A stretch of DNA of 61,196 bases from Thioalbus denitrificans (GTDB lineage: Bacteria; Pseudomonadota; Gammaproteobacteria; DSM-26407): NCBI RefSeq assembly GCF_003337735.1, contig NZ_QPJY01000017.1:1-61196 (forward strand). The letters are read 5' to 3'. The translations under genes were made by a program, and so were the position numbers. The notes beneath the pieces are model-generated. The model was not told where the DNA came from, ran no database searches, and saw nothing but the letters and a program-made list of their open reading frames with translations. Of the stretch, positions 16,612 through 35,564 are shown one piece after another (within the stretch, counting starts at the first letter, position 1; each line of letters opens with the position of its first letter).

Positions 16612-16622
16612 GGGACGCCCGG

Positions 16623-16997
16623 AATCGCCGCGAGGGCGCGCCTCCCACAAGGCATCCCGGCCCCTGCGGCTCGATCAAAGCCAGTGGGAGGCCCGCCCCC
16701 GGGGCGATAGGGGCGGGGCCGGAGCCCGGTGGATGACTTGTCCCCGGAGCACCGGAAGCCAACGGGACAGGAAATCATGTCACCCCTGTAAATCCTGTCC
16801 ATTCAAAACCAATCGCCGCGAGGGCGCGCCTCCCACAAGGCATCCCGGCCCCTGCGGCTCGATCAAAGCCAGTGGGAGGCCCGCCCCCGGGGCGATAGGG
16901 CGGGGCCGGAGCCCGGTGGATGAATGGTCTCCGGAGCACCGGAAGCCAACGGGACAGGAAATCATGTCAATCCTGTAAATCCTGTCTATTCGAATAT
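16623..16997. repeat. 188-bp direct tandem repeat, two copies
   Basis: The 390-bp gap between the ACP gene and recQ contains no gene but two nearly identical head-to-tail copies, beginning at 16623 and 16811. Each opens with AATCGCCGCGAGGGCG, carries an internal imperfect inverted repeat around CCTCCCAC/GTGGGAGG, and ends with the ATCCTGTAAATCCTGTC motif found elsewhere in the window. Differences are limited to a few substitutions and an indel. Confidence 0.93.
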
Positions 16998-17000
16998 CCA

Positions 17001-18917: not shown

Positions 18918-19141
18918 GGGTATCCTCCTGGAAGGTTGGTCGGGTCATCAGGACCGGGTGGCCCGAACCCGGTCGCGGAGTTCCGTCCCCGCGCCGGAAC
19001 CCACCCGGCAACCGGGCCAAGACACCACACAACCGCCCGCGGCGTCAATGGCCCGGGTATGCCGCGCAGGTAAGCCCGTGACCCACCGGGGCGGCGGGAA
19101 AGGGCGGTCGGCCAGCGCCGGTTACGGCGCCGGCCACTCCC

Positions 19142-19170
19142 TTGACAGCCCAGCCCCGAATGAGGAAAAT
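19142..19170 (+). promoter_or_regulatory. promoter of tRNA-Arg
   Basis: Perfect TTGACA (19142-19147), 17-bp spacer, GAAAAT (19165-19170). The predicted start lies about 10 nt before the mature tRNA. The 220 bp between recQ and this promoter show no other feature. Confidence 0.7.
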
Positions 19171-19186: not shown

Positions 19187-19263
19187 GCGCCCGTAGCTCA
19201 GCTGGATAGAGTACCTGGCTACGAACCAGGCGGTCGCACGTTCGAATCGTGCCGGGCGCGCCA
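19187..19263 (+). tRNA. tRNA-Arg(ACG)
   Basis: A 77-nt tRNA: acceptor GCGCCCG (19187-19193) pairs with CGGGCGC (19253-19259), the D arm is AGCTCAGCTGGATAGAGT, the T arm has GTTCGAATC and CCA is encoded. Anticodon loop CTACGAA gives ACG at 19221-19223, whose A34 is normally edited to inosine to read CGN codons. The accessory island starts directly after it. Confidence 0.97.
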
Positions 19264-19270
19264 GAATCCC

Positions 19271-19313
19271 AAAAGGGCCGACTGCCTTCAGCAGTCGGCC
19301 CTTTTCGTTTTTT
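19271..19313 (+). terminator. strong rho-independent terminator after tRNA-Arg
   Basis: A perfect 15-bp stem (19271-19285 with 19291-19305, core GGGCCGACTGC) and 5-nt loop CTTCA is followed by CGTTTTTT. Poly-A on the left arm makes it potentially bidirectional. Confidence 0.92.
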
Positions 19314-19376
19314 ACCTCGCATCAACGCCAACCCCGCGCCTGCTCCAGCCGTAACCTCAAGGTGGCCCCTGAAATA

Positions 19377-19390
19377 TTCCCGAGCGGGAA
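19377..19390. promoter_or_regulatory. palindromic operator 1 of the HipB-like regulator
   Basis: TTCCCGAGCGGGAA has perfect 6-bp arms around two central bases. It lies just upstream of the predicted -35 box of the regulator gene. A second copy lies exactly 50 bp downstream. Binding by the adjacent HTH protein is inferred. Confidence 0.7.
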
Positions 19391-19398
19391 AGAGTCGT

Positions 19399-19427
19399 TT
19401 GTAATGCAGACAGTGGTCCTCTATCTT
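19399..19427 (+). promoter_or_regulatory. promoter of the HipB-like regulator
   Basis: TTGTAA (19399-19404), 17-bp spacer and TATCTT (19422-19427) lie between the two palindromes; operator 2 touches the -10 box. The arrangement predicts autorepression. Confidence 0.5.
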
Positions 19428-19440
19428 TCCCGAACGGGAA
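19427..19440. promoter_or_regulatory. palindromic operator 2 of the HipB-like regulator
   Basis: TTCCCGAACGGGAA, same arms as operator 1 and extended by one T/A pair outside. It overlaps the end of the -10 box and ends 16 bp before the start codon, a typical autorepression position. Confidence 0.7.
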
Positions 19441-19456
19441 ATTCTGGAGTGCCCGC

Positions 19457-19726
19457 ATGAACCGCAAAGCGCCATTGCCGAACTGGACTCTCGTGACCGC
19501 CGAGGACATCGGCCGCTGTGTCCGTGACCAGCGCAAGGCCCAGGGGGCCACCCAGTCCGATCTCGCCGCCCTGTGCGGCGTCGGTATTCGCTTCATTTCC
19601 GAACTGGAGAACGGCAAGCCCACCGCAGAGTTGGGCAAGGTCCTGCAGCTGCTCAAGTGCCTGGGGCTCGAGATCAGTGCGAGGCCCCGGCACTGGGAAT
19701 CTAGATCTATATGGCGGTCTGAATAA
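19457..19726 (+). CDS. HipB-like XRE-family transcriptional regulator
   Basis: An 89-aa protein with an XRE-type helix-turn-helix (QSDLAALCGVGIRFISELENGK, residues about 32-54) followed by the LLKCLGLEISARPR tail typical of HipB/Y4mF-like antitoxin repressors. Such proteins normally precede a HipA kinase toxin, but no hipA follows. Instead the last residues (after about position 77) read into unrelated sequence and the frame stops 149 bp before hsdM. Two palindromes flank its promoter, so it probably represses itself and perhaps the restriction operon. The start has GGAG 10 nt upstream. Confidence 0.82.
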   Translation: MNRKAPLPNWTLVTAEDIGRCVRDQRKAQGATQSDLAALCGVGIRFISELENGKPTAELGKVLQLLKCLGLEISARPRHWESRSIWRSE

Positions 19727-19878
19727 TCAGCTGCAGCATCGTCTGTACTTGGATCGAAAAGCAGGGCATGTCCGCACATCGCTTCGGACGCATCTGGAGG
19801 TTCAGGAAGGACGATGTGGACAATTTGGTGAAGGCTGGCGGCGTGGTGGACAAGACAAGACAGGAACAAGGGGAATGA
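19723..19878 (+). pseudogene. remnant of an excisionase-type HTH gene
   Basis: In this frame the translation WIEKQGMSAHRFGRIWRF (from 19750) followed by RKDDVDNLVKAGG is the C-terminal half of a helix-turn-helix 17/excisionase-family DNA-binding protein. Small genes of this type often precede hsdM. The N-terminal half is missing: the frame is closed by a TGA at 19720 and the only ATG is at 19768. The stop codon overlaps the hsdM start as ATGA, the spacing expected of an original operon. The residual 36-aa frame could still be translated and couple hsdM expression. Confidence 0.65.
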
Positions 19879-21395
19879 GAAGGAAGAACGGAAATGACAA
19901 TTCAGTCGCTCTGGATATCGGGACCCTCTCAGGACATCTCTGGGAGGCGGCCAATATCCTGCGTGGCCCGGTCGATGCGGCCGATTTCAAGACCTACATC
20001 TTCCCGCTGTTGTTCTTCAAGCGGCTTTCCGACGTCTATGACGAGGAGTATGCCGCCGCCTTGGAAGAGGCTGACGGGGACGTGGAGTACGCCCGGTTCC
20101 CCGAGAACCACCGGTTCCAGGTGCCGGAGGATTGCCACTGGCAGGATGTCCGGGCCAAGAGCGCCAATATCGGCCATGCGCTCCAGAAGGCCATGCGCTG
20201 CATCGAGCAGGCCAACCCGGACACCCTGCACGGCATCTTTGGCGATGCCCAGTGGACCAACAAGGATCGCCTTTCGGACGCGCTGCTCAAGGACCTGCTC
20301 GAACACTTCTCGTCGCTCAACCTGGGCAATGAGCTCTGCAAGGCGGACATCCTCGGCCAGGCCTATGAATACCTGATCAAAAAGTTTGCCGACCTCACCA
20401 ACAAGAAGGCCGGTGAGTTCTATACCCCGCGCTCTGTGGTCGCGCTGATGGTACGCATTCTTGCGCCCAAGGCCGGGGAAACCATCTATGACCCGGCATG
20501 CGGGACCGGCGGCATGCTCCTCGAGGCACTGCACCATGTCAAAGAGCATGGCGGCGACGAGCACCTCATGCTGGGCAAGCTCTACGGCCAGGAAAAGAAC
20601 CTGACCACATCCTCCATCGCCCGGATGAACCTCTTCCTCCACGGCGCGGAGGATTTCCATATAGAACGCGGCGATACTCTGCGCCTGCCCGCCTTCTACT
20701 CAGGCGACAGCCTCGCCACCTTTGACTGCGTCATCGCCAATCCTCCCTTCTCCCTGGAAAAGTGGGGGGACGATGTCTGGATCAACGACCCCTACGGACG
20801 CAACTTTGCCGGGCTGCCGCCAGCCAAGTCCGGCGACTTCGCCTGGGTCCAGCACATGATCAAATCCATGGCCCGCAAGACCGGCCGCATGGCCGTGGTG
20901 CTTCCTCATGGCGTGCTGTTCCGCATGTCCAAGGAAGGCGAGATCCGGCGCAAGCTGCTGGAGATGGACATGCTCGAAGCGGTGATCGGCCTCGGTCAGA
21001 ACATTTTCTATGGCACCGGTCTCGCGCCGTGCGTTCTGGTCTTCCGGGACAGCAAGCCCAAGGCGCACCGCCAGAAAGTGCTGTTCATCGACGCCTCCAA
21101 GGAGTTCAAGACCGGCCGCGCCCAGAACGAGCTGCTGCCGGAACACGTGGACAACATCCATCGCTGGTACGAGGGCTATCAGGATGTGGAAGGGATCTGC
21201 CGGGTGGTTACCCTCGACGAGATCCGCGAGAACGATTTCAACCTGAATATCCCCCGCTACGTGGAGCCGGTGATCGAGGAAGAATCCATGACCATCGATC
21301 AGGCCATCGCCAACCTCAAGGAATCGCTGCAGGCGGCGTATGCGGCCGAAGATCGGTTGAAGGCGTTGCTCGAGAAAGAGGGGTTGATGGCATGA
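19875..21395 (+). CDS. hsdM: type I restriction-modification DNA methyltransferase, HsdM paralogue 1
   Basis: A 506-aa class I N6-adenine methyltransferase. The N-terminal HsdM domain (ILRGPVDAADFKTYIFPLLF) precedes the SAM-binding motif DPACGTGGM at residues 206-214 and the catalytic NPPF at 289-292. It methylates adenine in the sequence chosen by HsdS. The ATG at 19875 has AAGGGG upstream and overlaps the stop of the excisionase remnant. It overlaps the next small gene by ATGA. About half of its residues match the second HsdM downstream, so the operon carries two complete, diverged M subunits. Confidence 0.93.
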   Translation: MRRKNGNDNSVALDIGTLSGHLWEAANILRGPVDAADFKTYIFPLLFFKRLSDVYDEEYAAALEEADGDVEYARFPENHRFQVPEDCHWQDVRAKSANIGHALQKAMRCIEQANPDTLHGIFGDAQWTNKDRLSDALLKDLLEHFSSLNLGNELCKADILGQAYEYLIKKFADLTNKKAGEFYTPRSVVALMVRILAPKAGETIYDPACGTGGMLLEALHHVKEHGGDEHLMLGKLYGQEKNLTTSSIARMNLFLHGAEDFHIERGDTLRLPAFYSGDSLATFDCVIANPPFSLEKWGDDVWINDPYGRNFAGLPPAKSGDFAWVQHMIKSMARKTGRMAVVLPHGVLFRMSKEGEIRRKLLEMDMLEAVIGLGQNIFYGTGLAPCVLVFRDSKPKAHRQKVLFIDASKEFKTGRAQNELLPEHVDNIHRWYEGYQDVEGICRVVTLDEIRENDFNLNIPRYVEPVIEEESMTIDQAIANLKESLQAAYAAEDRLKALLEKEGLMA

Positions 21396-21625
21396 GTAAC
21401 ACATCAACCAGAGTCGAACGTGCGCAGAAACCACGGAAATGTCCCGAATGCGGGCAGGCCCCTCTGGCCAGCATCCTCTATGGCATGCCCGCTTTCGATG
21501 AGGAGCTAGAACGAAAAATGAATGAAGGCCGGATCACGCTTGGCGGCTGCTGTGTCAGCGATGACGATCCAGCGTGGGAATGCACCCACTGCGGGCTCAA
21601 GATTTTCCGGAGGCAGGTGCAATGA
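21392..21625 (+). CDS. small zinc-ribbon protein inside the type I RM operon
   Basis: A 77-aa protein with two CxxC knuckles, CPECG at residues 17-21 and CTHCG near 65-69, separated by about 44 residues that include YGMPAF and LGGCC. It belongs to a small zinc-ribbon family I recognise from other genomes but cannot name. Both ends overlap their neighbours by ATGA (21392-21395 with hsdM1 and 21622-21625 with hsdM2), so it is a translationally coupled member of the operon and not a chance frame. A role in assembly, regulation or DNA contact is conceivable but not shown. Confidence 0.85.
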   Translation: MSNTSTRVERAQKPRKCPECGQAPLASILYGMPAFDEELERKMNEGRITLGGCCVSDDDPAWECTHCGLKIFRRQVQ

Positions 21626-23136
21626 TTTCCCAATCCCAACTCGAATCCTACCTCTGGGGCGCGGCCACCCTGCTGCGCGGTTACATCGACGCCGGGGACT
21701 ACAAGCAGTTCATCTTCCCGCTGCTGTTCTACAAGCGCCTGTGCGACGTGTACGACGAGGAACTGGCCGATGCGCTGGAGGAGTCCGGCGGCGATCAGGA
21801 ATACGCCGCGCTTCCCGAACAGCACCGCTTCCAGATCCCGGAGGACGCCCACTGGACGTCCACCCGAACCAAGGTCAAGAACGTAGGCAAGGCCATTCAG
21901 GACGCCCTGCGGGCCATTGAGACGGCCAACCCCGACACTCTGTACGGGGTCTTCGGCGATGCCCAGTGGACCAACAAAGACCGCCTGCCGGACCGCATGC
22001 TGCGCGAGTTGATCGAGCATTTCAGCTCGCAGACGCTTTCACTCTCCAACTGCCCGGAGGATGAGCTGGGCGTGGGCTACGAGTTTCTGATCAAGAAGTT
22101 CGCCGACGATTCCGGCCACACCGCTGCGGAGTTCTATACCAACCGCACCGTGGTCCATCTGATGACCGAGATGCTCGAACCCAAACCGGGTGAGTCGATC
22201 TATGACCCCACCTGCGGGTCAGCAGGCATGCTGCTCTCCGCCGTCGCCCATTTGAAGCGGCAGAACAAGGAGTGGCGGAACCTGCGGCTGTTCGGGCAGG
22301 AGCGCAACCTGCTCACCTCCGCCATCGGCCGGATGAACCTGTTTCTTCACGGCATCGAGGACTTCCGCATTGTCCGGGGCGATACCCTGGCCAACCCAGC
22401 CTTTGTCGAAGGCGACCGGCTCATGCAGTTCGATGTGGTCCTGGCCAATCCGCCGTACTCCATCAAGCAGTGGGACCGCGATGCCTGGTCCGCCGATCCG
22501 TGGGGCCGGAACATCTACGGCACGCCGCCCCAGGGCCGTGCCGACTATGCCTTCTGGCAGCACATCATCAAGAGCATGAAGGCCAAGAGCGGTCGCTGCG
22601 CCATCCTGTTTCCGCATGGTGTCCTCTTCCGCAACGAAGAGTCGGCCATGCGCGAGAAGCTGGTCGCCCACGACGTGGTGGAGTGCGTGCTGGGTCTCGG
22701 TCCCAATCTCTTTTACAACTCGCCCATGGAAGCCTGCGTCGTCATCTGCCGGATGAACAAGCCCAAGGAACGCAGGAATAAGGTGCTCTTCATCAACGCG
22801 GTGAACGAGGTGACCCGCGAGCGGGCACAGAGCTTCCTGACTGACGATCACATCCAGCGCATTGTCGCCGCCTACCAGGCTTTTGGTGACGAGGACGGCT
22901 TTGCCCGGGTGGTCGGCAATGACGAGATCCGGGAGAAAGCCAGCAATCTCAGCATCCCGCTCTACGTGCGGGCGGACAACGGAAATGGCAATGGCAATGG
23001 CAACGGCGCGACCGAAACGGTCAGTCTCAAGCAAGCCATTGCGAACTGGCAGGAAAGTTCGATGGCATTGCGGGAGTCGATGGACGGCCTCTTCGAGGTA
23101 CTTGAGGATGCACGGGTGATGGGAGGTGGCAAATGA
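21622..23136 (+). CDS. hsdM: type I restriction-modification DNA methyltransferase, HsdM paralogue 2
   Basis: A 504-aa HsdM with SAM motif DPTCGSAGM at residues 195-203 and catalytic NPPY at 276-279. It shares the HsdM N-terminal domain and the GDAQWTNKDRL segment with paralogue 1 but differs in the SAM loop. Both look catalytically competent, so an M1-M2 heterodimer with HsdS is plausible. Near residue 453 an Asn-Gly run is encoded by GGCAAT hexamer repeats. The start overlaps the zinc-ribbon stop (ATGA) and the stop overlaps the hsdS start. Confidence 0.93.
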   Translation: MISQSQLESYLWGAATLLRGYIDAGDYKQFIFPLLFYKRLCDVYDEELADALEESGGDQEYAALPEQHRFQIPEDAHWTSTRTKVKNVGKAIQDALRAIETANPDTLYGVFGDAQWTNKDRLPDRMLRELIEHFSSQTLSLSNCPEDELGVGYEFLIKKFADDSGHTAAEFYTNRTVVHLMTEMLEPKPGESIYDPTCGSAGMLLSAVAHLKRQNKEWRNLRLFGQERNLLTSAIGRMNLFLHGIEDFRIVRGDTLANPAFVEGDRLMQFDVVLANPPYSIKQWDRDAWSADPWGRNIYGTPPQGRADYAFWQHIIKSMKAKSGRCAILFPHGVLFRNEESAMREKLVAHDVVECVLGLGPNLFYNSPMEACVVICRMNKPKERRNKVLFINAVNEVTRERAQSFLTDDHIQRIVAAYQAFGDEDGFARVVGNDEIREKASNLSIPLYVRADNGNGNGNGNGATETVSLKQAIANWQESSMALRESMDGLFEVLEDARVMGGGK

Positions 23137-24299
23137 GTGAGCAGTCCCTGAAGCCCGGCTGGAAGATGGTGAAGTTCGGCGAGGTGGTGAAGAACGCCAA
23201 CCTCGTGGAACGTGATCCCGAGGCCAATGGCGTTGAAAGAATCGTCGGGCTTGAACACATCGATCCCGAGAATCTGCATGTCCGGCGCTGGAACTCTGTT
23301 GTGGATGGCACCTCGTTTACCCGCAAGTTCGTACCGGGACAGACGCTCTTCGGTAAGCGCCGGGCCTATCAACGCAAGGTCGCCTACGCTGAGTTTGAAG
23401 GCATTTGCTCCGGGGATATCCTGACGTTCGAGCCGAAGAACAGAAAGGTTCTACTGCCGGAGCTTCTGCCATTTATCTGCCAGAGCGATGCCTTCTTCGA
23501 TCATGCGCTTGACACCTCGGCCGGATCGCTGTCGCCGAGAACCAGTTGGACGGCATTGAAGGACTTTGAATTCTCGCTGCCGCCGCTTGACGAACAGAAG
23601 CGTATTGCCGAGATTCTGTGGGCGGCCGATGAGGCGGTGGAGTCATGGAATAGTTGTCAATCAAGTTTGCAGCGTTTAATCGAATCTGTTGTTGAAGAGA
23701 CGGCAAAAAATGCTCGTGACAAAGGTTGGGCTTTCAAAGCTCTTGGGGATGTCGCAACCGTTGAACGTGGGAAGTTTTCACATCGACCGCGAAATTTGCC
23801 TCAGTTTTATGGAGGGCCATATCCTTTTGCGCAAACAGGAGATGTGCATCGTGCAAAGGGCTTCATCAGGGATTTCGAATACACGTTGACCGATGAAGGG
23901 AAGCATTACAGCAAGAGCTTTCCCTCTGGCACCATCCTAATCACAATCGCGGCCGTCATCGGTGCTACAGCTATTACAGAAGCTGAAACCTGGGCTACTG
24001 ACAGTGTTGTTGGGATTGTTCCCGGAGATGAAATCAACGTCTATTTTCTTGAGTATTTTTTGAGGACGCAGCGTCACTATCTCGAAAACGTTGCAGCGAC
24101 CCAAACAGCTCAGAAGAATATCAATCTGCAAATTCTGCGACCACTCCAGGTGCCGGTTCCACCGTTGGCGGTTCAAGAATCTATCGTTCAGAAAATCGCA
24201 AAAATACAGGCTCAAATAGACCTTTTGGAAAGCCATTTGGCGAGCTGTCGCGGTCTGATTAAGTCAACGACAAATGGTATGGGGGCTATTCATGTTTAA
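23133..24299 (+). CDS. hsdS: type I restriction enzyme specificity subunit HsdS
   Basis: A 388-aa specificity subunit with two target recognition domains (TRDs) that each read half of a bipartite DNA site. TRD1 spans roughly residues 5-145, followed by the conserved helix start LPPLDEQKRIAEIL; TRD2 spans about 195-345 and ends with VPPLAVQESIVQKIAKIQ. Base composition changes sharply: from about 23640 to 24299 the DNA is clearly AT-richer than TRD1 and the flanking hsd genes, indicating replacement of TRD2 by transfer. It overlaps hsdM2 (ATGA) and hsdR (8 bp). Confidence 0.92.
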   Translation: MSEQSLKPGWKMVKFGEVVKNANLVERDPEANGVERIVGLEHIDPENLHVRRWNSVVDGTSFTRKFVPGQTLFGKRRAYQRKVAYAEFEGICSGDILTFEPKNRKVLLPELLPFICQSDAFFDHALDTSAGSLSPRTSWTALKDFEFSLPPLDEQKRIAEILWAADEAVESWNSCQSSLQRLIESVVEETAKNARDKGWAFKALGDVATVERGKFSHRPRNLPQFYGGPYPFAQTGDVHRAKGFIRDFEYTLTDEGKHYSKSFPSGTILITIAAVIGATAITEAETWATDSVVGIVPGDEINVYFLEYFLRTQRHYLENVAATQTAQKNINLQILRPLQVPVPPLAVQESIVQKIAKIQAQIDLLESHLASCRGLIKSTTNGMGAIHV

Positions 24300-27246
24300 C
24301 GAAGAAAATACGGTCGAACAGATGGTTCTCGACACGCTCTGCGGCGGCGTGACTTCGAACATGGTTGCCGAAGAGCTTGCGAGCTACGGCGGCGAAGTCA
24401 AAAGCTGGCGCTTCGTGTCCGCCGAGGAGCTGCCCCGTCAGCACTCCGACGTGCTGGTGGAGTCGATGGTGCGCGACGCCCTCATCCGCCTGAACCCGGA
24501 AATCAAGGCCCAGCCCGACCGCGCCGACGAGGTGCTCTACCGCCTGCGGACCATTCCGCTGTCGGTACAGAGCGAAGGCCTGGTGCGGGCCAACGAACTG
24601 TTTGCCGAATGGCTGCGGGGCGAGAAGTCCATGCCCTTCGGCGAGCGCGGCGAACACACGCCGGTACGGCTGATCGACTTCGAGAACCTGAGCAACAACG
24701 ATTACGTGGTCACCAACCAGTGGGTCTATCCGGTCAAGGAAGGCGGCCGCCGCTTCGACATCATCATGCTGGTCAACGGCATCCCGCTGGTGGTCGGCGA
24801 GGCCAAGACGCCGGTGCGCCCGGCGGTGACCTGGGTGGACGGGGCCAGCGACATCCATAACGGCTACGAACAGAGCGTGCCACAGATGTTCGTGCCCAAC
24901 GTCCTCTCCTTTGCCACCGAGGGCAAGTGCTATCGCTACGGCTCGGTACGCATGCCCATCGATATCTGGGGGCCGTGGCACGAAGGCGAGAACAAGGCCG
25001 AGGGGACGCTTGCGGATGTGCAGCGTTCCATCCGCTCCATGCTGCGCCCCCATGTGGTGCTGGACATCCTGCAGAACTTCACCCTGTTCGCCACCGACAA
25101 GAAACACCGGCGCATCAAGATCATCTGCCGCTATCAGCAGTACGAGGGCGCTAACCTGATGGTCGCCCGCGTGGTCAAAGGCTACCCCAAGAAGGGCCTG
25201 ATCTGGCACTTCCAGGGCTCGGGCAAGTCGCTGCTGATGGTGTTCGCGGCGCAGAAGCTGCGGATGCACCGCAAGCTCGGCAACCCCACGGTGATGATCG
25301 TGGTGGACCGCATCGACCTGGACACCCAGATCACCGCCACCTTCAATGCCGCCGATATCCCGAACATGATCGGGGCCGCCACCCGGCAGGAGCTGCAAAG
25401 CCTGCTGGCGGCCGATACCCGCAAGATCATCATCACCACCATACACAAGTTTGGTGAGGCGGACGGCCGCCTGAACGAGCGCTCGAACATCATAGTGATG
25501 GTGGACGAGGCGCACCGCACCCAGGAAGGCGATCTGGGCCGCAAGATGCGCGACGCGCTGCCTAACGCCTTTCTCTTTGGTCTGACCGGTACGCCGATCA
25601 ACAAGCGGGACCGCAACACCTTCTGGGCCTTCGGCGCGGACGAGGATGAGCAGGGCTATATGAGCCGCTACTCGTTCCAGGACTCGATCCGGGACAAGGC
25701 CACGCTGCCGCTGCATTTCGAGGCGGTAGACGTGAAGCTGAAAATCAACAAGGACGCCATTGACGAAGCCTACTCGCAGATGACCGATGAGCTGAGCGAG
25801 CTGGATCGTGACGACCTGGCCAAACGGGCCGCCAAGATGGCGGTGCTGATCAAGGCCCCGGTGCGGGTGAACGCCATCTGCCAGCATATCGTCAAGCACT
25901 TCCAGGAGAAGGTGGAGCCGAACGGCTTCAAGGCCCAGGTGGTGACCTTCGACCGGGAGTGCTGCGTTCTCTACAAGAAGGCCATGGACGAGCTGGTCGG
26001 ACCGGAGGCCAGCGCCATTGTCATGCACACCCAGGGCGGCAAGTCCGATCAGTACGCGGAATGGAAGCTGGCCAAGGACGAGGAGGAAAAACTCCTCGAC
26101 CGTTTCCGCGATCCGAACGACCCACTCAAGTTCCTGATCGTCACCTCCAAGCTCCTGACCGGTTTTGATGCGCCCATTCTGCAGGTGATGTACCTCGACA
26201 AGCCGATGAAGGATCACAACCTGCTGCAGGCCATCTGCCGTACCAATCGCGTCTACCCCGGCAAGACCCACGGCCTGATCGTGGATTACCTGGGCATCTT
26301 CGATGACGTGGCCACGGCCCTCGATTTCGATGAAAAGGCGGTGCAGAAGGTCATCACCAATTTGGATGAGCTCAAGAAAGAGCTGCCCGGCGTGGTGGCG
26401 AGATGCCTGGCGTTCTTCCCCGGTGTGGACCGTACTGTGGGCGGCTACGAGGGGCTGATCGCGGCGCAGGATTGCCTGCCGAATAACGAGACCCGGGACA
26501 AGTTCGCGGCGGAATACTCGGTGCTCTCCCGACTGTGGGAGGCGCTGTCTCCCGATCCCTGTCTCGGCCCCTATGAAAAGGACTATAAGTGGCTGACCCA
26601 GGTCTATGAGTCCGTCAAGCCTCCCAGCGGGCATGGCAAGCTCTTGTGGCATGCATTGGGCGCTAAAACCATTGAGTTGGTCCATGAGAATGTGGCCATC
26701 GAGGAGGTCAGGGATGACCTGGAAACACTGGTCATGGACGCGGAAGTGCTGGAAGGACTGCTGGAGGTCAAGGACCCGGACAAGAAATCCAAGGAAATCG
26801 AGATCAAACTCATCGCCCGGCTGCGCAAGCACAAGAGCGACCCCACGTTCGTCGCCCTCGGCGAGCGCCTGGAAAAACTCAGGGAGCGTCACGAACAGGG
26901 CCTGTTGCACAGCCTCGATTTCCTGAAGGAGCTGCTGACGCTGGCCAAGGAAGTAGTGCAGGCCGAGAAGCAGGTAGATCCTGTGGACGAGCAGGCAAAG
27001 GCCAAGGCGGCTCTGACTGAGCTGTTTGCCGAGGTGAAAGGTACAAAAACCCCGGTAATCGTGGAGCGAATCGTCAACGACATCGACGAGATAGTGGGCA
27101 AGGTCAAGTTCCCAGGGTGGCAGGACACGAAGGCGGGCGAGCGGGAGGTACAGAAGGCTCTGCGCAAGGTGGTTTACGTAAAATACAAGATCAAGGACCA
27201 GGATCTGTTTGACAAGGCTTTCGGATATATCCGGCAGTATTACTAA
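24292..27246 (+). CDS. hsdR: type I restriction endonuclease subunit HsdR
   Basis: A 984-aa motor and nuclease subunit. The N-terminal PD-(D/E)xK nuclease has FDIIML (D156) and GEAK (residues 169-172). The SF2 motor has Walker A FQGSGKS (307-313), VDEAH (404-408), LTGTP and QAICRTNR (motif VI). The C-terminal helical domain for binding the methylase follows. The ATG at 24292 is chosen over ATG 24274 because a GGGGG ribosome binding site precedes it and the family N-terminus begins there. Composition returns to higher GC, unlike the end of hsdS. Confidence 0.95.
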   Translation: MFNEENTVEQMVLDTLCGGVTSNMVAEELASYGGEVKSWRFVSAEELPRQHSDVLVESMVRDALIRLNPEIKAQPDRADEVLYRLRTIPLSVQSEGLVRANELFAEWLRGEKSMPFGERGEHTPVRLIDFENLSNNDYVVTNQWVYPVKEGGRRFDIIMLVNGIPLVVGEAKTPVRPAVTWVDGASDIHNGYEQSVPQMFVPNVLSFATEGKCYRYGSVRMPIDIWGPWHEGENKAEGTLADVQRSIRSMLRPHVVLDILQNFTLFATDKKHRRIKIICRYQQYEGANLMVARVVKGYPKKGLIWHFQGSGKSLLMVFAAQKLRMHRKLGNPTVMIVVDRIDLDTQITATFNAADIPNMIGAATRQELQSLLAADTRKIIITTIHKFGEADGRLNERSNIIVMVDEAHRTQEGDLGRKMRDALPNAFLFGLTGTPINKRDRNTFWAFGADEDEQGYMSRYSFQDSIRDKATLPLHFEAVDVKLKINKDAIDEAYSQMTDELSELDRDDLAKRAAKMAVLIKAPVRVNAICQHIVKHFQEKVEPNGFKAQVVTFDRECCVLYKKAMDELVGPEASAIVMHTQGGKSDQYAEWKLAKDEEEKLLDRFRDPNDPLKFLIVTSKLLTGFDAPILQVMYLDKPMKDHNLLQAICRTNRVYPGKTHGLIVDYLGIFDDVATALDFDEKAVQKVITNLDELKKELPGVVARCLAFFPGVDRTVGGYEGLIAAQDCLPNNETRDKFAAEYSVLSRLWEALSPDPCLGPYEKDYKWLTQVYESVKPPSGHGKLLWHALGAKTIELVHENVAIEEVRDDLETLVMDAEVLEGLLEVKDPDKKSKEIEIKLIARLRKHKSDPTFVALGERLEKLRERHEQGLLHSLDFLKELLTLAKEVVQAEKQVDPVDEQAKAKAALTELFAEVKGTKTPVIVERIVNDIDEIVGKVKFPGWQDTKAGEREVQKALRKVVYVKYKIKDQDLFDKAFGYIRQYY

Positions 27247-27344
27247 GAAGTCGCCAAAGAGACATGCGGACTAGGGTAACGGACAAGTCCGTCAGGGCTC
27301 GCCAGGCCTGAGCTCAACATAATCCGCCACATGGAGGACTGGCC

Positions 27345-28997
27345 ATGCAAGTTGAGACGGCTTGGGTGAAGGCCCCGTCACAGATAGGCGGTCTGGACCA
27401 TCTTGCTGTACAGGCCCCGTGCATCAACATCTATAGCCGCCTCCTGCCAGGAATTACCAATGTTACAGATCGGGCGCGCTACTACTCCTTCTATCCATGG
27501 CTGATATGGGCGCTAGACCAGGCGGGATACACCCAGTATGACGACACATTCATCGAGCGATTCCGACGCGCCGATTGCCTCTACTCGCTGATTGCGGAGC
27601 GCCATGCCATCACGGCGGGCGGTAACTACGAGGACCATGCGGCGGCGATGGTCGGAAGCAACACGCTGGCCACGGTTGCCTCATCTCTGGATGACAATGG
27701 CGAGGTGAGGCTCTCCGATTATTCACTTCGCGACGGTGCGAAGGCCCGCTATTTTCTCAACCGTTTGGGCGGTCTTGGGCAGTACTATCTCGGCGTTCTG
27801 CGGGAATTGAACATCCTGGATGGCGACACGACGCGCGGGATCAAGTACACCAGACAAGTCGGGGAGCAGATTGCGATCCGTGTCGATGCGGGCATCAATC
27901 GGAAGCTGTTCCTCGCGGCTGTGGACGCGGATGCCGTGACCGCGGCCGACCTGGAAGCGCTGAGCGCGTTTTGCCCCTGCCAACTTGTGAAATCTGCAGG
28001 TGAGCACGACATCCTGTCTGACCTGTTTTTCGTGCGAGGGCTGTTCTATGACAAGGAGACATTGCCGCGACGTCGAACGCTCCAATCGCTGCTCCAACTT
28101 ACAGAACTCCTTGTCAACGAAGAAGAAGAGGTTACAGAAGCAACTTTCCGTGGGTGTGCCTATACAAGTAGCCTACCAAGTGGTACTGCGTGGGTGGTCC
28201 CTCCGTCGCTCGCCGGCAATCGTCAGAAGTGGGCGCTCTATGCACGAAACGAAATTCTGTCGATTGCAGTGCAAGGGCTTTTCTACGTGCTTCTCGATGC
28301 CTATGAAGCGTCGGGGATTCGGTTCGATGCCAGCGCACAGGTGGTCGACTGGTACCTGGCCCAGCCAGAAGTGAGGGAAGCTCTGGGAACTGTGGGACGG
28401 CAGCGGACCTTTTCGCGTTGCCTTGCAGACAGCGTCGGCTGGCTGCCGGCGCTCGAGCACTGGCGCGAGCCATCCCATGAAGCGGCTCTGATGGAACATG
28501 TCGTGCAGATGTCGCGGGGCTCCAAGTCTCCCGACACACGGACAGCGATCATCGTAGCCGTTATGCGGATTTTAATCGGGCTCGCCAGTCGGGCAGATGA
28601 TCAGGCAAACGCCTACGGCGACCTCATATTCGACAAGGGCTACTTCCTCTATTACCCAATCAATTTAGAATCTTTTTCACTGCATGAGAACCATACGTGG
28701 ACAGGCATGACCATGGAGGAGGTGCTTCGGTGGCTTCTTAGCCATTGGGGTATAGACCTGCACCTGCGTGTTGCGCTGAGGAAGCTTCGCGGACAGTCCA
28801 AGTCAACCTTTCGGATCCGTCCGTCCGACCGAGGTATGGAAGTGATCGGCGCCCCGTCGGCCGCTCACAGTCGCCCACGCTTCAATCAGGCGCTCAGGGT
28901 CCTGAAGGACATCGGTGCTTTGGAGCAAACCTCGTCAGGAGTTTGGCAGCCGAGTGCACTCGGTGTTTCGGTCATGGAGTTGGGCGATGCTCCCTAG
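27345..28997 (+). CDS. unrecognised 550-aa protein, first gene of a two-gene module
   Basis: I do not recognise this family. The N-terminus contains a striking stretch (residues about 25-50) rich in Pro, Tyr and Trp: SRLLPGITNV then RARYYSFYPWL. The remainder reads as mixed alpha-helical with no signal peptide or membrane segment. The last 60 residues resemble a winged-helix-like end but without a clear motif. GGAGG precedes the ATG. It starts 98 bp after hsdR on the same strand and overlaps the next gene, a PLD-fold protein, by 11 bp. Codon use is less GC-biased than the backbone. Context suggests a defence role (inference). Confidence 0.85.
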   Translation: MQVETAWVKAPSQIGGLDHLAVQAPCINIYSRLLPGITNVTDRARYYSFYPWLIWALDQAGYTQYDDTFIERFRRADCLYSLIAERHAITAGGNYEDHAAAMVGSNTLATVASSLDDNGEVRLSDYSLRDGAKARYFLNRLGGLGQYYLGVLRELNILDGDTTRGIKYTRQVGEQIAIRVDAGINRKLFLAAVDADAVTAADLEALSAFCPCQLVKSAGEHDILSDLFFVRGLFYDKETLPRRRTLQSLLQLTELLVNEEEEVTEATFRGCAYTSSLPSGTAWVVPPSLAGNRQKWALYARNEILSIAVQGLFYVLLDAYEASGIRFDASAQVVDWYLAQPEVREALGTVGRQRTFSRCLADSVGWLPALEHWREPSHEAALMEHVVQMSRGSKSPDTRTAIIVAVMRILIGLASRADDQANAYGDLIFDKGYFLYYPINLESFSLHENHTWTGMTMEEVLRWLLSHWGIDLHLRVALRKLRGQSKSTFRIRPSDRGMEVIGAPSAAHSRPRFNQALRVLKDIGALEQTSSGVWQPSALGVSVMELGDAP

Positions 28998-31530
28998 AAT
29001 CTCCCTTTTGGACGAACTGCGGAAGGGGGGCTACGAGGCGTCCCTGATTACAACCTTCAACGCCTATCCGCCGTTCTATGAAGAGGTTGTCCTTCGTCGT
29101 CTGGTTGGCGCAGGCGTGCGCCACAACGTCCTGATGATGGATGCGCGGCAGTATGGCCACTCACTTGAACACTATCCGCCCCGGCTGGCTGGGCGCGAAT
29201 ATATCCTGCTGCCGGTCAAGGTGGCCGGAACCTTCCATCCGAAGTTGATGTTCCTGGTGGGTAAGCGCAAGGGCCTGATTGTTGTCGGCAGCCATAACAT
29301 GACGCTCGCGGGATTCGGTTTCAATCGTGAACTGACCAACCTTGCCCGTATTGAGGGTGCCGATGACAGGGATGGTGTCGCACTGGCGCATGAAGTCTGG
29401 GATGAGGTTGAGCACTGGCTCATAAATTTTTCTGAGGGTGTGCCTGATCACGTCAAGCGTATGGTGCGTCGGGTAAGGGACTTTGCCCCTTGGCTTTCGG
29501 CGGAGGGTGGGGCTGGTGATGTCTTGCGGTTACTCGTCGGCCGGCCGGGGGGGCGTACCTTGTGGGAACAACTAACGGATCTTCTAGATTCCGAGGCAAC
29601 ACATGTATCTCTCTGCGGCGCCTTCTTTGATCAAGAGCTTAGGTTCTTGAAACGGATAAAGCATGACCTCAAGCCCCGTTGGTTTACGGTGGCGGTCGAT
29701 CCAGACACGGTCAAGATACCTCCACAAGCCCGAACAATGGCGGACATTTCAATTGTCGGAGCCAATGGCCTTGGCCTGGAAGACGGAAAGGAGGAAGGGA
29801 GCAGTCGGTATCTCCATGCCAAGGGCATTCTGGTGGAGCAGGCCAACGGTGGCACGGTATTCGCGTCGGGCAGCGCTAATCCCAGCGCGCCCGCATGGTT
29901 ATCGTCTGACTCTAGCGCCAACGTCGAACTGATGCTGGCTTATACAGGCCAACGGGCGCGTGCAATCGCGGCGGACATGGGTTTCACACGGATTGTTGAA
30001 ATGCCAGTCCTTGGCGAGGCCGATTGGACGACCATTGCGTCGAACACGGAGCAGTGTGGGGATCCCATCCGGCCCCGTTACCGCAGTGGGATCGCCGTCG
30101 TCGAGGACACATGCGTCATCATCAGACAAGCCCTGCTGGAGGGGCTTGGAAATCCGGAGTTTCTGCTGTGCTCTCCCAATGGCAAAGTCCTCGATCGCTC
30201 GAGCCGGCTGCGCGTGGACTCTGATGCTGGGATCATCGAATTCCCGGAGGCAAAGCTGACAGACGCCAGTGTGGTTGATGTTGTGATTTCCGGCGAACTG
30301 GTTCTGAAACTACTGTTGCATCATGTGCGTGCGATTGAGGATCAGGCGAGAAGCGGAACCCAGCGGCGGTTCAAAGAAGCCTTGCTGAGTCTCGATACTG
30401 ACACACCAAATATTGAGCTGCTAATCCATTGCGTCGACAAGATAATCGCCTCCGAATCCCGAGATACACCGTCTCCCGGGCTCAAGAAGACGGGGACTCG
30501 AGGACAGGCGCCATCAGAGGAACAAGAGCCGCCTGCAGCTCTCGCTATCGACATCAGCGAGGTTAAGCATCACAAGTCCAAGAAACGGCTAATCCATTCA
30601 AGCGACTTCTCCTATCTGCTTGATGCTCTTATTTATCATCTCCGAATCGCTGAAGATAAGTCGATTGAAGAGCTCGACCACGCCGGCCGAAACGAGGAAG
30701 AACAAGTTGGCGCCGATGATGATCAGGACGCGGACAGTGAGCAGCCGACCGCTCAGAAGCAGAAAGTGATTCTCGATGTCTGCCATGCACGGGTAGGCAC
30801 GGTTATCAGCCGGATGGTTGCTCAGCTGAATGCCTATGCGAAGGGTAAGCAGACTCTACGAGATCTACTGGTGCGATTGCTTGCCGTATTGGCGGTACTC
30901 AGAGAGTTGCGCTCCTGCGATGGACGGGTTTCTTGGGTGGAGAAGGGACAGACCACAGTGCCAATGAAACAAAGGCACCGTCTCTTGGAAGAGATCATGC
31001 TTAATCTGTTCGAGGGCGAATCCTCTCTCCTCCAGCTGGAAGCTTTGGGCGACGACTTCCAACACAGTGACGACATGGCCCGGCTCAAGGGACTTGTTCT
31101 ATGGCTCGCCTGGGACTGTGGCCTGACCATGGAATTGAATAAACCCTTCATGGAGAGTCGCAATCAACTTGACGAACGCTTGAAGCGGAACGCGATGATC
31201 CTGGCTCTGGCCCAGATGATTCAGTCGGATGATGTGGTTATCGATGAGGCGCGTCAGAGCATCGGCAGCCTGACATCGAGCGAAATGGACTGGCTTAAGG
31301 AAGTTCAGAGATTAGCTTTTCAGTGTGAGATTCTACGCCATGACCATTCGAGCCTTTTTCCCGCCGACAGCGCTGAACCTGGTGATATCGCTCTGCACAA
31401 GAAGAAGGATGACTGGATTCTGCGAGTGGTGTCAGGCAGTGGAGGGAACCGTGTATTTCTAGTGAGGCTGAGTAGGGACAGAGAGCGTATCGAGTATCGT
31501 TCAGAGTACTTGGGCGTAACACGGTTGTAG
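28987..31530 (+). CDS. phospholipase-D-fold (HKD) protein, second gene of the module
   Basis: An 847-aa protein with two HxK motifs of the phospholipase D superfamily: H84-P-K86 with GSHN at 101-104, and H277-A-K279 with GSANPS at 295-300. The usual Asp of HxKxxxxD is absent in the first motif and Glu in the second, as in some PLD-like nucleases. A helical region with an acidic low-complexity stretch near residue 580 follows, and the last 60 residues look like a small beta-barrel. The start at 28987 has GGAG 6 nt upstream and overlaps the 550-aa gene by 11 bp. DNA cleavage is the likely activity, but the substrate is unknown. Confidence 0.85.
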   Translation: MLPRISLLDELRKGGYEASLITTFNAYPPFYEEVVLRRLVGAGVRHNVLMMDARQYGHSLEHYPPRLAGREYILLPVKVAGTFHPKLMFLVGKRKGLIVVGSHNMTLAGFGFNRELTNLARIEGADDRDGVALAHEVWDEVEHWLINFSEGVPDHVKRMVRRVRDFAPWLSAEGGAGDVLRLLVGRPGGRTLWEQLTDLLDSEATHVSLCGAFFDQELRFLKRIKHDLKPRWFTVAVDPDTVKIPPQARTMADISIVGANGLGLEDGKEEGSSRYLHAKGILVEQANGGTVFASGSANPSAPAWLSSDSSANVELMLAYTGQRARAIAADMGFTRIVEMPVLGEADWTTIASNTEQCGDPIRPRYRSGIAVVEDTCVIIRQALLEGLGNPEFLLCSPNGKVLDRSSRLRVDSDAGIIEFPEAKLTDASVVDVVISGELVLKLLLHHVRAIEDQARSGTQRRFKEALLSLDTDTPNIELLIHCVDKIIASESRDTPSPGLKKTGTRGQAPSEEQEPPAALAIDISEVKHHKSKKRLIHSSDFSYLLDALIYHLRIAEDKSIEELDHAGRNEEEQVGADDDQDADSEQPTAQKQKVILDVCHARVGTVISRMVAQLNAYAKGKQTLRDLLVRLLAVLAVLRELRSCDGRVSWVEKGQTTVPMKQRHRLLEEIMLNLFEGESSLLQLEALGDDFQHSDDMARLKGLVLWLAWDCGLTMELNKPFMESRNQLDERLKRNAMILALAQMIQSDDVVIDEARQSIGSLTSSEMDWLKEVQRLAFQCEILRHDHSSLFPADSAEPGDIALHKKKDDWILRVVSGSGGNRVFLVRLSRDRERIEYRSEYLGVTRL

Positions 31531-31712
31531 GCATGTCTTCCGCGATTCTGCTGGTTGGAAGAGCATGTGCGAAAATGACGCGAGATATGGTTTTCAGTTA
31601 CTGATGGCTGTGCAAGTTGACCTAACGAATCTGGATAAGTGCCAATGCGCAAGGACAGCCTGTACAGTGATAGTAATCGCCTGACATTTGTGTCTACAGG
31701 GCAATACTGTCA

Positions 31713-31901
31713 ATGAAGTACTACATCTGGCTGGACGGCAACGACAACCCCCTGTCGAAGGCCTGGCGCTACGACGACGAGACGGAGCGCATGGCCGAGG
31801 AGCGGCATCCGCCGTCCGCCGATGCGATCCTGCGGGCGGGGACGCGGGAGCAGCTCATGGAGCGCTATGGCCTGGGGGCGGGTGATTTCGCCGATGCCTG
31901 A
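31713..31901 (+). CDS. small hypothetical protein (62 aa)
   Basis: Starts MKYYIWLDGND and is rich in charged residues; no motif is recognised. Codon third positions are GC-rich again, unlike the island that ends near 31.55 kb, so this gene belongs to the backbone. The 182 bp between the island and this gene hold nothing I can identify. The start ATG has only a weak ribosome binding site. Confidence 0.5.
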   Translation: MKYYIWLDGNDNPLSKAWRYDDETERMAEERHPPSADAILRAGTREQLMERYGLGAGDFADA

Positions 31902-31946
31902 TGAGGGATGTCTGCTCCCGGCCACCCGGCCGGGCCGCGCCGGGGT

Positions 31947-32693
31947 CTATCCGGACACCGCCAATTGCTGCAGCTCCAGGGCGTTGAGCGCCGCGTAGCC
32001 GGCCTCGTCGTTGTCGAAGTAGCAGAAGATCTCCAGCCCCCGGCCGGCCCAGTCGTGGAAGGTTTCCGCCCACCCGGCCAGCGCCCGCCGGTCGTAGCTG
32101 CCCCGGTAGGGACCGTCGGGGCCGTGCAGGCGGACGTAGGCGAAGTCGGCCGTGAGCTCCCGGGGCGAGAGGCGGCCGTCGAGGTCGTGGATGCAGAGCG
32201 CCGCGCCGTGGCGCGCCAGCAGGTCGTAGATCGCCGGGTCCTCCCAGCTCGGGTCGCGGATTTCGAAGGCGCAGCGGCGGTCGCTACCCAGGGCCTCGAG
32301 GAAGGCCCCGAGCCGTTCCGGGTTGCAGTGCCAGCGGGGCGGGAGCTGGAACAGGAGGGGGCCGAGCCGGTCCCCGAGCAGTCCGATGCGGTCGAGTAAA
32401 GGGCGCAGAGAGCGGTCCGGGTCCTTGAGCTTCTTCATGTGGGTGATGTAGCGGCTGGCCTTGGCACTGAAGAGGAATCCGGAAGGCACCGTCGCCTTCC
32501 AGTGGGACAGGGCGGATTCCTGCGGCAGGTGATAGAAGGAACTGTTGATCTCCACGGTGGAGAGCCGTTCCGCGTAGTAGCCGAGCATCGCCGCGTCGGC
32601 GATGTCCTCGGGGTAGAAGGGGCCCTTCCAGTGGGCGTAGGACCACCCCGAGGTCCCGATGTGGATCCGGCGTGCGTGGGATTTCTTCGTCAT
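31947..32693 (-). CDS. DUF72 domain-containing protein
   Basis: A 248-aa TIM-barrel-type protein of the DUF72/YecE family. Signature segments are IGTSGWSYAHWKGPFYPE at the N-terminus, VEINSSFYHLP (residues about 47-57), FLFSAKASRYITH and FEIRDPSW in the middle, and YVRLHGPDGPYRGSY towards the end. The catalytic function of the family is not established. It is divergent from the PEP-utilising gene, with 131 bp between the starts. Confidence 0.9.
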   Translation of the reverse strand: MTKKSHARRIHIGTSGWSYAHWKGPFYPEDIADAAMLGYYAERLSTVEINSSFYHLPQESALSHWKATVPSGFLFSAKASRYITHMKKLKDPDRSLRPLLDRIGLLGDRLGPLLFQLPPRWHCNPERLGAFLEALGSDRRCAFEIRDPSWEDPAIYDLLARHGAALCIHDLDGRLSPRELTADFAYVRLHGPDGPYRGSYDRRALAGWAETFHDWAGRGLEIFCYFDNDEAGYAALNALELQQLAVSG

Positions 32694-32824
32694 CGGCAGC
32701 CCCTCCCGGCGACCCGGCCCGTCGGGTCGGCCTTCTCCCTTAGTTCAGCACATTCGCCGGGCGATGCATGTCCGGACGGTGCTAACCTCAAGGCAGGTGT
32801 CACCCGATCGGGAGGTGTCAGGCC

Positions 32825-34349
32825 ATGCTGCCGCTGCAGGGGGTTCCCTACGGGCCGGGGCGGGCGCGCGGCGTGCTGCGGCGGGGCGGACCCGGAGCCG
32901 CGGACCGGGTGCTGCTGCTGACCCACGCGGAGCTCTGCCGCCTGCAGGGCACGCCGGCGGCTATCATCGTGACCGGGGCCGCGCCCCTGTCCCACCGGAT
33001 GCTGCGCCTCATCGGGGCCGGCATACCGGACCCTCCTGCTGGCCCCGGCCCAGGCGGCGGGCCTGGAGGAGGGGATGGAGGTGACGGTGGACGGCGACCG
33101 GGGCCTTCTGCTCGAGGCCGGTGTGGCCGCTCCGGTCGCTCCGGAAGCTGTTTTCCTGCCGCCGCGGTCCGGGGCGCCTGTCCTGACCGCCGACGGCCAG
33201 GCGATCTGCCTGCGGGCCAGCATTCCCGGCGCGGCGGGCGCGGAACAGGCCCTGGCCAACGGGGCCGAGGCCATCGGGCTGGTGCGCAGCGAATACCTCG
33301 AACCCGGCGGCGGGCTTGCGCCCGATGCCGCCTTCTACGCAACGGCGCTGACCGCACTGTGCCTGGCGGCCCACCCCCTGCGGGTCATGCTGCGGCTGCC
33401 GGATTTCTCGGAGGACAAGCGGCCCTCCTGGTTCCCGGCGGACCTGCCGCTCGCCCCGCTCGGCCTCCAGGGCGTGCGCCTCTATGGACGGGAGCCGGTC
33501 AGGACAGTGTTGGGCGCGCTGCTCGAGGCGGTGGGGCCGGTCGCCCAGGCCTTCGATCTGGCGCTGCTCCTGCCATTCGTGTCCCGGCCGGAGGAGTACC
33601 GGCGCTGGCGTGGCGAAATCGAGGCTCTCCTGCCGGCGCCCATCGCGGTGGGGGTGATGGTGGAGACCCCGGCGGCGGCGCTGGAGATCCCCGAGTGGCT
33701 GCTGCTGGCGGATTTCGTCTGCGTCGGCTGCAACGATCTCATGCAGGGTCTGTACGGAGCGGACCGCAACCTGCCCGAGGTGGGGCACCTGCTCGATCCC
33801 CATGCCCCTGCCACCTTCCGCTTCCTGCAGCGGCTGGCGGAACAGGCCGGGGAGGCGACCGCGGGCGTGCAGCTGTGCGGGCTCCTGCCCCAGGCGCCGG
33901 GGGTCCTGCCCGTGCTGCTCGGCCTCGGTTTCCGCACCTTCTCGGTGGAGCCGCGCCTCATCCCCGCCCTGGCCCGCACCGTTGCGCGGACCGACTGCGG
34001 GACGGCGGAGGCGCTGGCCCGGGGCGTGTGCGCCGAGCCGGATGCGGAGAGCGCGCGGGCGCTGCTCGGGCTGCCCCGGGCGGCGGGCTGGGGCGTGGGG
34101 GCGGCGACGGGCGTCTTCCAGGAGCCTGTCAGTCCCACTCGATCCAGCGCAGCTCAAAGCGCCGGGCGTCGTCGCCGGCCACCGTCGTTCCCAGCCGACC
34201 GCACTCGCGCGCCATCACCGCCCGCAGCCAGGCCGCGTCGGCGGCGGAGGGCCGGTGCAGGCGGAAGCGCCGGATCTGCAAGGGCACCAGCGACAGGCGC
34301 AGCAGCCGCCCGCTCGCCGGGTCCAGGGTCAGGAAGTACATCAGGGTGA
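32825..34349 (+). pseudogene. PtsI-like PEP-utilising enzyme with internal frameshift
   Basis: The first part (frame of ATG 32825, ribosome binding site GGGAGG) encodes a mobile phospho-histidine domain with APLSHRMLRLIGAGIP. Near base 33029 one extra base moves the reading to another frame, which continues TLLLAPAQAAGLEEG and then the PEP-binding barrel: GLVRSEYL, VGVMVETPAAALEIP, VGCNDLMQ and the catalytic-cysteine loop QLCGLL. The HPr-binding domain of PtsI is absent, so this is a short relative. The second frame runs on into the antisense of capA, so its true end (about 34.1 kb) is unclear. It may be a real pseudogene or a sequencing indel. Confidence 0.7.
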
Positions 34350-35415
34350 GATCGCCGCGGAAGGACTCCTGCCCGCCGATGCCCTCGTAGTCGTTCAGGA
34401 AGTCGCCGCAGCCGTAGAGAATCGGCTTTTCCCGGTAGACCTCGATCCCCCGGGGGTGGTGGGAGGAGTGGCCGTGGACGACGTCCACCCCGGCGTCGTC
34501 GATCAGCTGGCGGGCGAAGCGGCGCTGTTCTGCGGGGATGTGGTAGCCCCAGTTGCCGCCCCAGTGGATGGAGGCGACGACGATGTCTCCCGCCCGCTTC
34601 ACCGTGCGGACCCGATCGGCGATTCGCCCGACCGTCGTTGGGGAGAGATCCGGCAGGAGGTCCACGCCCGGCCGGTCCGGCCGGGCGCCCCACTCGCCGG
34701 GTATTCCGCTGGAGCCATGGCCGAGGGCGAGGACGATCACGCGCCCCTTCCCGGGGCATTCCAGGACGGCGGGGGCCTGCGCCTCCGCGAGCGTCCTCCC
34801 GGCGCCGCTGGTGCGCATCCCCGCCGCGGCGAGGGTCTCCAGGGTCTGTTCCAGCCCGGGATAGCCCCAGTCCAGCACGTGGTTGTTGGCCAGCGCGCAG
34901 CAGTCGATCCCCGCCGCCGACAGGCAGCCGGCGTTGCGGGGATGCATGCGGTAGTGGATGCCCTTGCCGGGCCACCAGTCGTCGCGGTCGGTGACGGCGG
35001 TCTCCAGGTTGATCAGTCGCACGTCGGGCCTCACCCGCGCCAGCTCCTCCAGCGCCTCGCCCCAGGGGTAGCCGAACGCCACCGGCCCGGGTATCGGGCC
35101 GTTGGCCCGCTCGGCGATACGGAGATATTCGGCGGCATCGGTGACCCAGGATTCGTGCAGCGTCGGGTCGCCGGGGTGGGGCAGGAGCTGGTCGATGCCG
35201 CGCCCCGTCATCACGTCGCCGCAGAGGAAAATCGTGAGTGGACGGGTGGCGGGGGATGGATCGCTGCGGTTGTCCCGGGGCATGGCCCGCAGGCGCTCAC
35301 CCCGGGCGCGTGCCCGGGTGAAAGGGGCGGCTCCCGTCACTGCTCCGAGCGCGGAGCCACCGAGCAGCCGCAGGAACCGCCTGCGGCCCGGTTTGCTGGT
35401 TGTGGGGCCCTGCAT
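34129..35415 (-). CDS. CapA-family metallophosphatase-like protein, Tat-type signal
   Basis: A 428-aa protein of the CapA/PgsA poly-gamma-glutamate-type family, a calcineurin-like fold. Conserved segments are LCGDVMTGRGID (residues about 63-75), INLETAVTD, ANNHVLDWG, SIHWGGNWG and VVHGHSSHHPRGIE. The N-terminus has RRRFLRLLGGSALGAVTGAA, a twin-arginine-like signal, so export is likely. No other capsule genes are nearby, so polymer synthesis is not supported; the function is open. It converges on the PtsI-like gene. Confidence 0.87.
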   Translation of the reverse strand: MQGPTTSKPGRRRFLRLLGGSALGAVTGAAPFTRARARGERLRAMPRDNRSDPSPATRPLTIFLCGDVMTGRGIDQLLPHPGDPTLHESWVTDAAEYLRIAERANGPIPGPVAFGYPWGEALEELARVRPDVRLINLETAVTDRDDWWPGKGIHYRMHPRNAGCLSAAGIDCCALANNHVLDWGYPGLEQTLETLAAAGMRTSGAGRTLAEAQAPAVLECPGKGRVIVLALGHGSSGIPGEWGARPDRPGVDLLPDLSPTTVGRIADRVRTVKRAGDIVVASIHWGGNWGYHIPAEQRRFARQLIDDAGVDVVHGHSSHHPRGIEVYREKPILYGCGDFLNDYEGIGGQESFRGDLTLMYFLTLDPASGRLLRLSLVPLQIRRFRLHRPSAADAAWLRAVMARECGRLGTTVAGDDARRFELRWIEWD

Positions 35416-35564
35416 GGCGATGACTCGAAGGCCGGGGTGCTTGCTTCCATCTTAGTTTACCGAGGCGCATGACACCGACGGCGGGTGGATGTCTCTTCCC
35501 GCCTGAAGCGAGTCGGCTCGTGAGGGGAGGGCGGGGAGGAGCGGGTCCGCGGGCCCGCCGGACG

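Follow-up and report, generated by a model that had tools for sequence, protein, structure and literature searches.

What is encoded by two adjacent genes that lie directly behind a type I restriction-modification operon and that neither Pfam nor NCBIfam names at their cut-offs? The genes, here called A and B, are present on a 61,196-nt contig of the gammaproteobacterium Thioalbus denitrificans (NCBI RefSeq NZ_QPJY01000017.1, positions 1 to 61,196, forward strand), the whole of which is referred to as the window. An earlier note, made from the letters of the window, singled them out as an unrecognised module and a candidate for an undescribed defence system. As judged from sequence comparison and structure prediction, A-B is probably (roughly 0.58) a mobile antiviral defence module of two components, one of them a nuclease of the phospholipase D (PLD) superfamily, and is often a plug-in to type I operons. 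This reading draws directly on the strict pairing and co-divergence of A and B, a conserved active site, a predicted PLD fold, enrichment beside type I genes, and location in a genomic island. Current family libraries miss a module that is strictly paired, keeps its active site conserved and extends from Pseudomonadota to a haloarchaeal plasmid. Should it prove protective, the nuclease systems would gain a two-gene member whose partner protein has an unsolved fold, and the module's repeated placement in type I operons offers a direct handle on the coupling of a second effector to restriction.

Strict pairing and co-divergence of A and B

A query of genome contigs with a single protein gave no match; an alignment query, the profile of A scanned against 84,980 species genomes, then matched 164 places, 80 of which were fetched for analysis. 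In 74 of these 80 loci, all found with A alone, B lies beside A on the same strand with A first; in the remaining 6, A is truncated or the locus is at a contig end. Because the pair recurs in this way, A-B is a real two-gene unit. The 74 loci together with four viral contigs make up a set of 78 pairs, and A and B overlap by 4, 8 or 11 bp in 46 of them (starts chosen mechanically). Searches of plasmids with A alone and with B alone returned overlapping sets of loci. A and B are strictly paired and co-diverging, with pairwise distances that correlate at r 0.97 across 65 loci (best of 999 permutations, 0.11). The proposal of the earlier note that the two genes form a genuine module, which failure to co-occur elsewhere would have undone, is therefore borne out, and the survey of neighbourhoods that it suggested finds the pair both with and without hsd genes.

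The pair is present in Pseudomonadota, Acidobacteriota, Myxococcota, Thermodesulfobacteriota, Nitrospirota, Gemmatimonadota, Omnitrophota and Verrucomicrobiota, where several of the placements rest on metagenome-assembled genomes and single ones could be binning errors. It is also found on plasmids of Bacteroidota and Streptomyces, and a haloarchaeal plasmid locus is assigned to it by B and position; thus, both chromosomes and plasmids carry it. Few genomes of the phylum carry the pair: 7 of 398, including the window's own.

Other arrangements were also seen. On a Rhizobium plasmid (L022:6049-10067) the order is reversed, with B before A. At L051:10392-12074 there is a distant A-like protein and no recognised B, and the neighbours are proteins of 573 and 2275 amino acids (aa) without a Pfam match. 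At L117:3648-6193, B is apparently in two frames (263 and 598 aa), possibly a decayed copy or a sequencing error.

The fold and active site of B and its partner A

In the AlphaFold model of B (mean predicted local distance difference test, pLDDT, 85), the first 359 residues have Tdp1 as their best Foldseek match among solved structures (E 1e-8), and Z is about 20 against Tdp1, PLD3, PLD4 and phospholipase D. The restriction enzymes SauUSI and NgoAVII are also among the structural matches, and PLD and phosphatidylserine synthase fit the fold too. Tdp1, PLD3/PLD4, SauUSI and the NgoAVII R protein resemble B in the PLD fold of these residues; however, identity is about 11-16%, and they have no related partner or C-terminal domains. 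A sequence search of the PDB with A or B gave no match, and Pfam PLDc_2 matches B at E 2.2e-5, just short of the family cut-off.

The motifs H84/K86 and H277/K279, picked out from the window sequence, are present and belong to a larger conserved set: all 69 family sequences keep H84, N104, E115, H277, K279, S296, N298 and E314, and 68 of 69 keep K86. Their description as HKD-type is right at the superfamily level but not letter for letter, since V91 and E284 occupy the positions of the D of HxKx4D. Because the predicted PLD fold is complete and the active-site residues are conserved, B is very probably a phosphodiesterase with a working active site. The predicted fold also agrees with the suggestion of a PLD protein with large extra C-terminal domains; mean pairwise identity is 18% in the C-terminal 490 residues versus 32% in the PLD half.

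In the favoured reading, B would be the effector. Both half-sites are in one chain, so that a single molecule of B would hold the full active site, and catalysis would proceed through a covalent phosphohistidine without metal, the established chemistry of the PLD superfamily. The substrate is most likely a nucleic acid, probably DNA. A would be the partner and would control B, most likely as a sensor or adaptor with nucleic acid or a partner machine as its binding target, and the two proteins are probably in a complex.

The model of A is confident (pLDDT 93.1; predicted template modelling score 0.91) and nearly all helical, with a winged-helix-like C-terminus. The most conserved stretch has the consensus LLPGITNVTxRxRYYSFYPW. 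A fold search of A against solved structures gave nothing under E 0.4; transporter-like matches were rejected as helical-bundle noise, and the family names RecQ winged helix and eS19 were rejected because Z 5-6 is too weak. Neither A against phage records (tblastn) nor the pair against E. coli genomes (megablast) gave a match.

Zac, PDC-M27 and other known systems

The term "unrecognised" did not survive comparison with PADLOC profiles. B clearly, though distantly, matches ZacB (E 2.3e-12) and PDC-M27B (E 3e-8), and A weakly matches ZacA (E 0.0024 over 44 residues); profile-profile comparison of A with ZacA gives E 4.3e-6 over 89 N-terminal columns. True Zac loci contain ZacA (DUF6361), ZacB and the helicase ZacC, and in loci of PDC-M27, a phage-defence candidate in PADLOC, a PLD gene stands between those for a 474-aa protein and a helicase (L148, L150).

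A-B resembles Zac in that A is followed by an overlapping or nearly touching PLD gene and in that the PLD half of B is homologous to ZacB, the two aligning over 283 columns (hhalign E 1.8e-15). True members match the ZacB profile at 1e-116 to 1e-167, where B has E 2.3e-12. However, ZacA (~390-440 aa) and ZacB (~620-710 aa, by open reading frame, ORF) differ in length from the 550 and 847 aa of A and B; and A has no match to Pfam PF19888 (DUF6361). In addition, no gene like that of ZacC (~1050 aa) follows B, and the upstream helicase is HsdR. PDC-M27 also has the A-PLD order, and a profile of B finds its PLD protein (E 8e-19). In contrast, its 474-aa partner has no convincing similarity to A (E 0.015), its proteins are smaller, and it has an adjacent helicase, PDC-M27C, of a kind that the window pair is without. 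Because the first two parts are in the same order, larger, and without a dedicated helicase, A-B is best described as a third, helicase-free branch beside Zac and PDC-M27, a member of neither. Consequently, what the earlier note took for an undescribed defence system is better seen as a new branch of a kind already predicted, since candidate defence families related to it keep the A-PLD order and add a helicase.

DrmC of DISARM and the PLD nucleases of Dpd/BRIGADE are, like B, PLD-superfamily nucleases of defence islands. However, the window has neither a YprA-type helicase nor a DUF1998 protein, similarity stays below the DrmC level, and the partner differs. Membership in DISARM, already doubted in the earlier note, was rejected: DrmC matches B at only E 0.02, there is no DrmA/DrmB pair, and the neighbours are hsd genes. 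A literature search found no text that mentions DUF6361 or that names the Zac proteins in connection with defence, and the PLD proteins described in the consulted passages of the YprA-family and BREX surveys are others, not the A-B pair.

Neighbourhoods, rival explanations and the island in the window

An HsdR-like protein is encoded within 10 kb of 16 of the 78 loci, compared with about 0.4 expected for 1.04 Mb of flank, a phmmer count set against a Pfam-domain background from one phylum (HSDR_N density in 120 genomes, with ~153 matches counted by eye and genome sizes rounded). The Poisson p is about 4e-21 if the loci are independent, which near relatives make not fully so. The pair is located after hsdR (the window, L068, L074), between hsdS and hsdR (L020, L072, L075 from Pseudomonas oligotrophica, L084, L085), or after hsdS in R-M-S operons (L107, L114); in L084 and L085, B and hsdR overlap by 4 bp. 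Other extra effector-like genes of the same operons are PIN, GIY-YIG, NucS-like, AbiEi, DUF3644 and OLD-type. Since a minimum of 14 changes in type I status is required on the tree of A (mean of shuffled labels, 18.1), the association with type I genes has been gained or lost repeatedly. The lack of a dedicated helicase in this branch and the frequent co-direction with type I genes suggest that the pair probably acts as an additional effector next to the main system and in some cases on its own. Its mobility is indicated by the plasmid copies and by an empty site, described below.

Several points weigh against antiviral defence. About half of the loci have no defence-related probe in their flanks (searched with a small probe set, and with short flanks at some loci), the fold of A points to no function, and a literature search gave no report of phage protection for A-B or its relatives. 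Lipid enzymes and repair enzymes of the Tdp1 kind have PLD folds too. Finally, gene content is compatible with use, by a pair without an adjacent helicase, of one encoded elsewhere.

Systems other than type I restriction also adjoin the pair. On a Polaromonas plasmid Zorya ABCD is followed by A-B, and on a Sphingobium plasmid the order is DrmD helicase, a 587-aa protein, and A-B; other loci have an SNF2 helicase and an MmeI-like methylase, or a type III-like methylase and helicase, beside the pair. There is a modest chance that A-B is a general plug-in nuclease recruited many times by unrelated systems (type I/III restriction, Zorya, DISARM-like) as a back-up effector, which would stay silent under the control of the host system until a phage puts that system out of action.

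For the operon-embedded copies the best rival, in itself rather unlikely, is a guard model, in which A would keep B silent on the type I enzyme and let it go once an anti-restriction protein of a phage has put the enzyme out of action, with cell death or DNA degradation as the outcome. The analogy is with prrC, which is embedded in the type IC operon EcoprrI and whose product is sequestered by the enzyme (PMC3874165); it is a nuclease gene added to a type I operon, and the gene order in a minority of A-B loci, co-directional with hsd genes at the three positions listed above, suggests a similar arrangement. However, PrrC is a tRNA anticodon nuclease rather than a PLD protein and B is no homologue of it, most pairs are without hsd genes, the link is often gained and lost, and the window pair has its own ribosome site after a gap behind hsdR.

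It is doubtful that B is instead an accessory nuclease subunit for which HsdR or another neighbouring helicase would act as motor, in place of the Zac or PDC-M27 helicase. In those relatives the helicase directly follows the PLD gene, and a helicase or translocase is near many pairs (HsdR, SNF2, UvrD, ZorD, DrmD), but these neighbours are not of one family, and at many loci there is no such gene. A house-keeping or repair role, with B removing protein-DNA adducts like Tdp1 or acting on lipids in an incidental neighbourhood, would suit Tdp1 as the closest solved fold and the fit of PLD and phosphatidylserine synthase; it is made very unlikely by the sparse, accessory distribution, the plasmid copies, the island location and the strong enrichment beside restriction genes. 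Most improbable is a toxin-antitoxin pair (toxic nuclease B, antitoxin A) serving mainly plasmid or island maintenance, to which tight coupling with the partner first and a mobile location would be suited, since both proteins far exceed the usual size in such pairs and the embedding of their genes in hsd operons indicates a defence role.

Upstream of the Vibrio pairs L096 and L098 there is a WYL regulator, and a facing DUF3584 operon resembles a condensin-type (Wadjet-like) system. PDC-M27 in L150 is also preceded by a WYL gene.

The putative antiviral module is represented in the window by a pair beside a type I set (Table 1). The genes upstream of A are, in order, an XRE-type regulator (HTH_3), hsdM, hsdM, hsdS and hsdR. 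The coordinates and lengths given in the earlier note, with the two genes overlapping by 11 bp on the same strand as hsdR and 98 bp behind it (27246 to 27345), are exact. A and B are likely to be translationally coupled across the overlap. A longer GTG frame for B is open from 28915; the ATG at 28987 is taken as the start because GGAG lies upstream of it and it agrees with relatives. A perfect palindrome, ACGGACAAGTCCGT (27279-27292), is present in the gap between hsdR and gene A and may be an operator or a hairpin.

Table 1. Features of the A-B pair and its island (positions in the window)
Feature	Position	Strand	Basis or remark
Segment absent at tRNA-Arg in same-genus genome (empty site)	19270..35551		genome comparison
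hsdM-like ORF 1	19518..21395	+	homology from near residue 138, so true start further in
hsdM 2	21574..23136	+	homology
hsdS	23133..24299	+	homology
hsdR	24274..27246	+	translocase/nuclease subunit; homology
GGAGG, likely ribosome-binding site of gene A	27333..27337	+	sequence
Gene A	27345..28997	+	550 aa; all-helical, winged-helix-like C-terminal end; unsolved fold; distant N-terminal relative of ZacA/DUF6361
A residues 33-52, LLPGITNVTDRARYYSFYPW	27441..27500	+	most conserved stretch of A; also present in ZacA
A residues 457-546, winged-helix-like end	28713..28982	+	weak match to RecQ winged helix and eS19 (Z 5-6), tentative
A/B overlap	28987..28997	+	11 bp; sequence coordinates
Gene B	28987..31530	+	847 aa; PLD-superfamily protein
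B residues 1-359, complete two-lobed PLD fold	28987..30063	+	predicted; Foldseek Tdp1 E 1e-8; Tdp1, PLD3, PLD4 Z about 20
First half-site, H84-K86-N104-E115	29236..29331	+	conservation in relatives
Second half-site, H277-K279-S296-N298-E314	29815..29928	+	conservation in relatives
B C-terminal extension	30064..31527	+	from model: beta-rich domain (366-446), low-confidence linker (about 491-531), helical domain, small beta end

All of these genes are lower in GC than their ~0.70 GC surroundings, and downstream of B, GC is back at 0.70-0.72. To this extent the pair does share the composition of the island, as had been claimed; however, its GC content at third codon positions (A 0.65, B 0.61) is unlike that of hsdM and hsdR (0.81-0.84) or hsdS (0.55). 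In the one same-genus genome examined, tRNA-Arg (19187-19263 in the window) is followed by ~140 bp and then by the counterpart of position 35552, so that 16.3 kb with the hsd genes and A-B is missing. A direct repeat of the tRNA end was sought at the right border and not found, and no attachment site is claimed. A further 2.5 kb to the left of tRNA-Arg (16621-19144) is also missing beside the tRNA in that genome.

Two different hsdM genes are in tandem (19518-23136) before one hsdS and one hsdR, and plasmid loci L012 and L020, which carry relatives of the pair, likewise have two methylase genes. At the head of the restriction operon, the palindromes TTCCCGAGCGGGAA (19377-19390) and TTTCCCGAACGGGAAA (19426-19441) precede the gene for the 89-aa HTH_3 regulator (19457-19726), with which, to go by the sequence, they likely form an operator-repressor pair.

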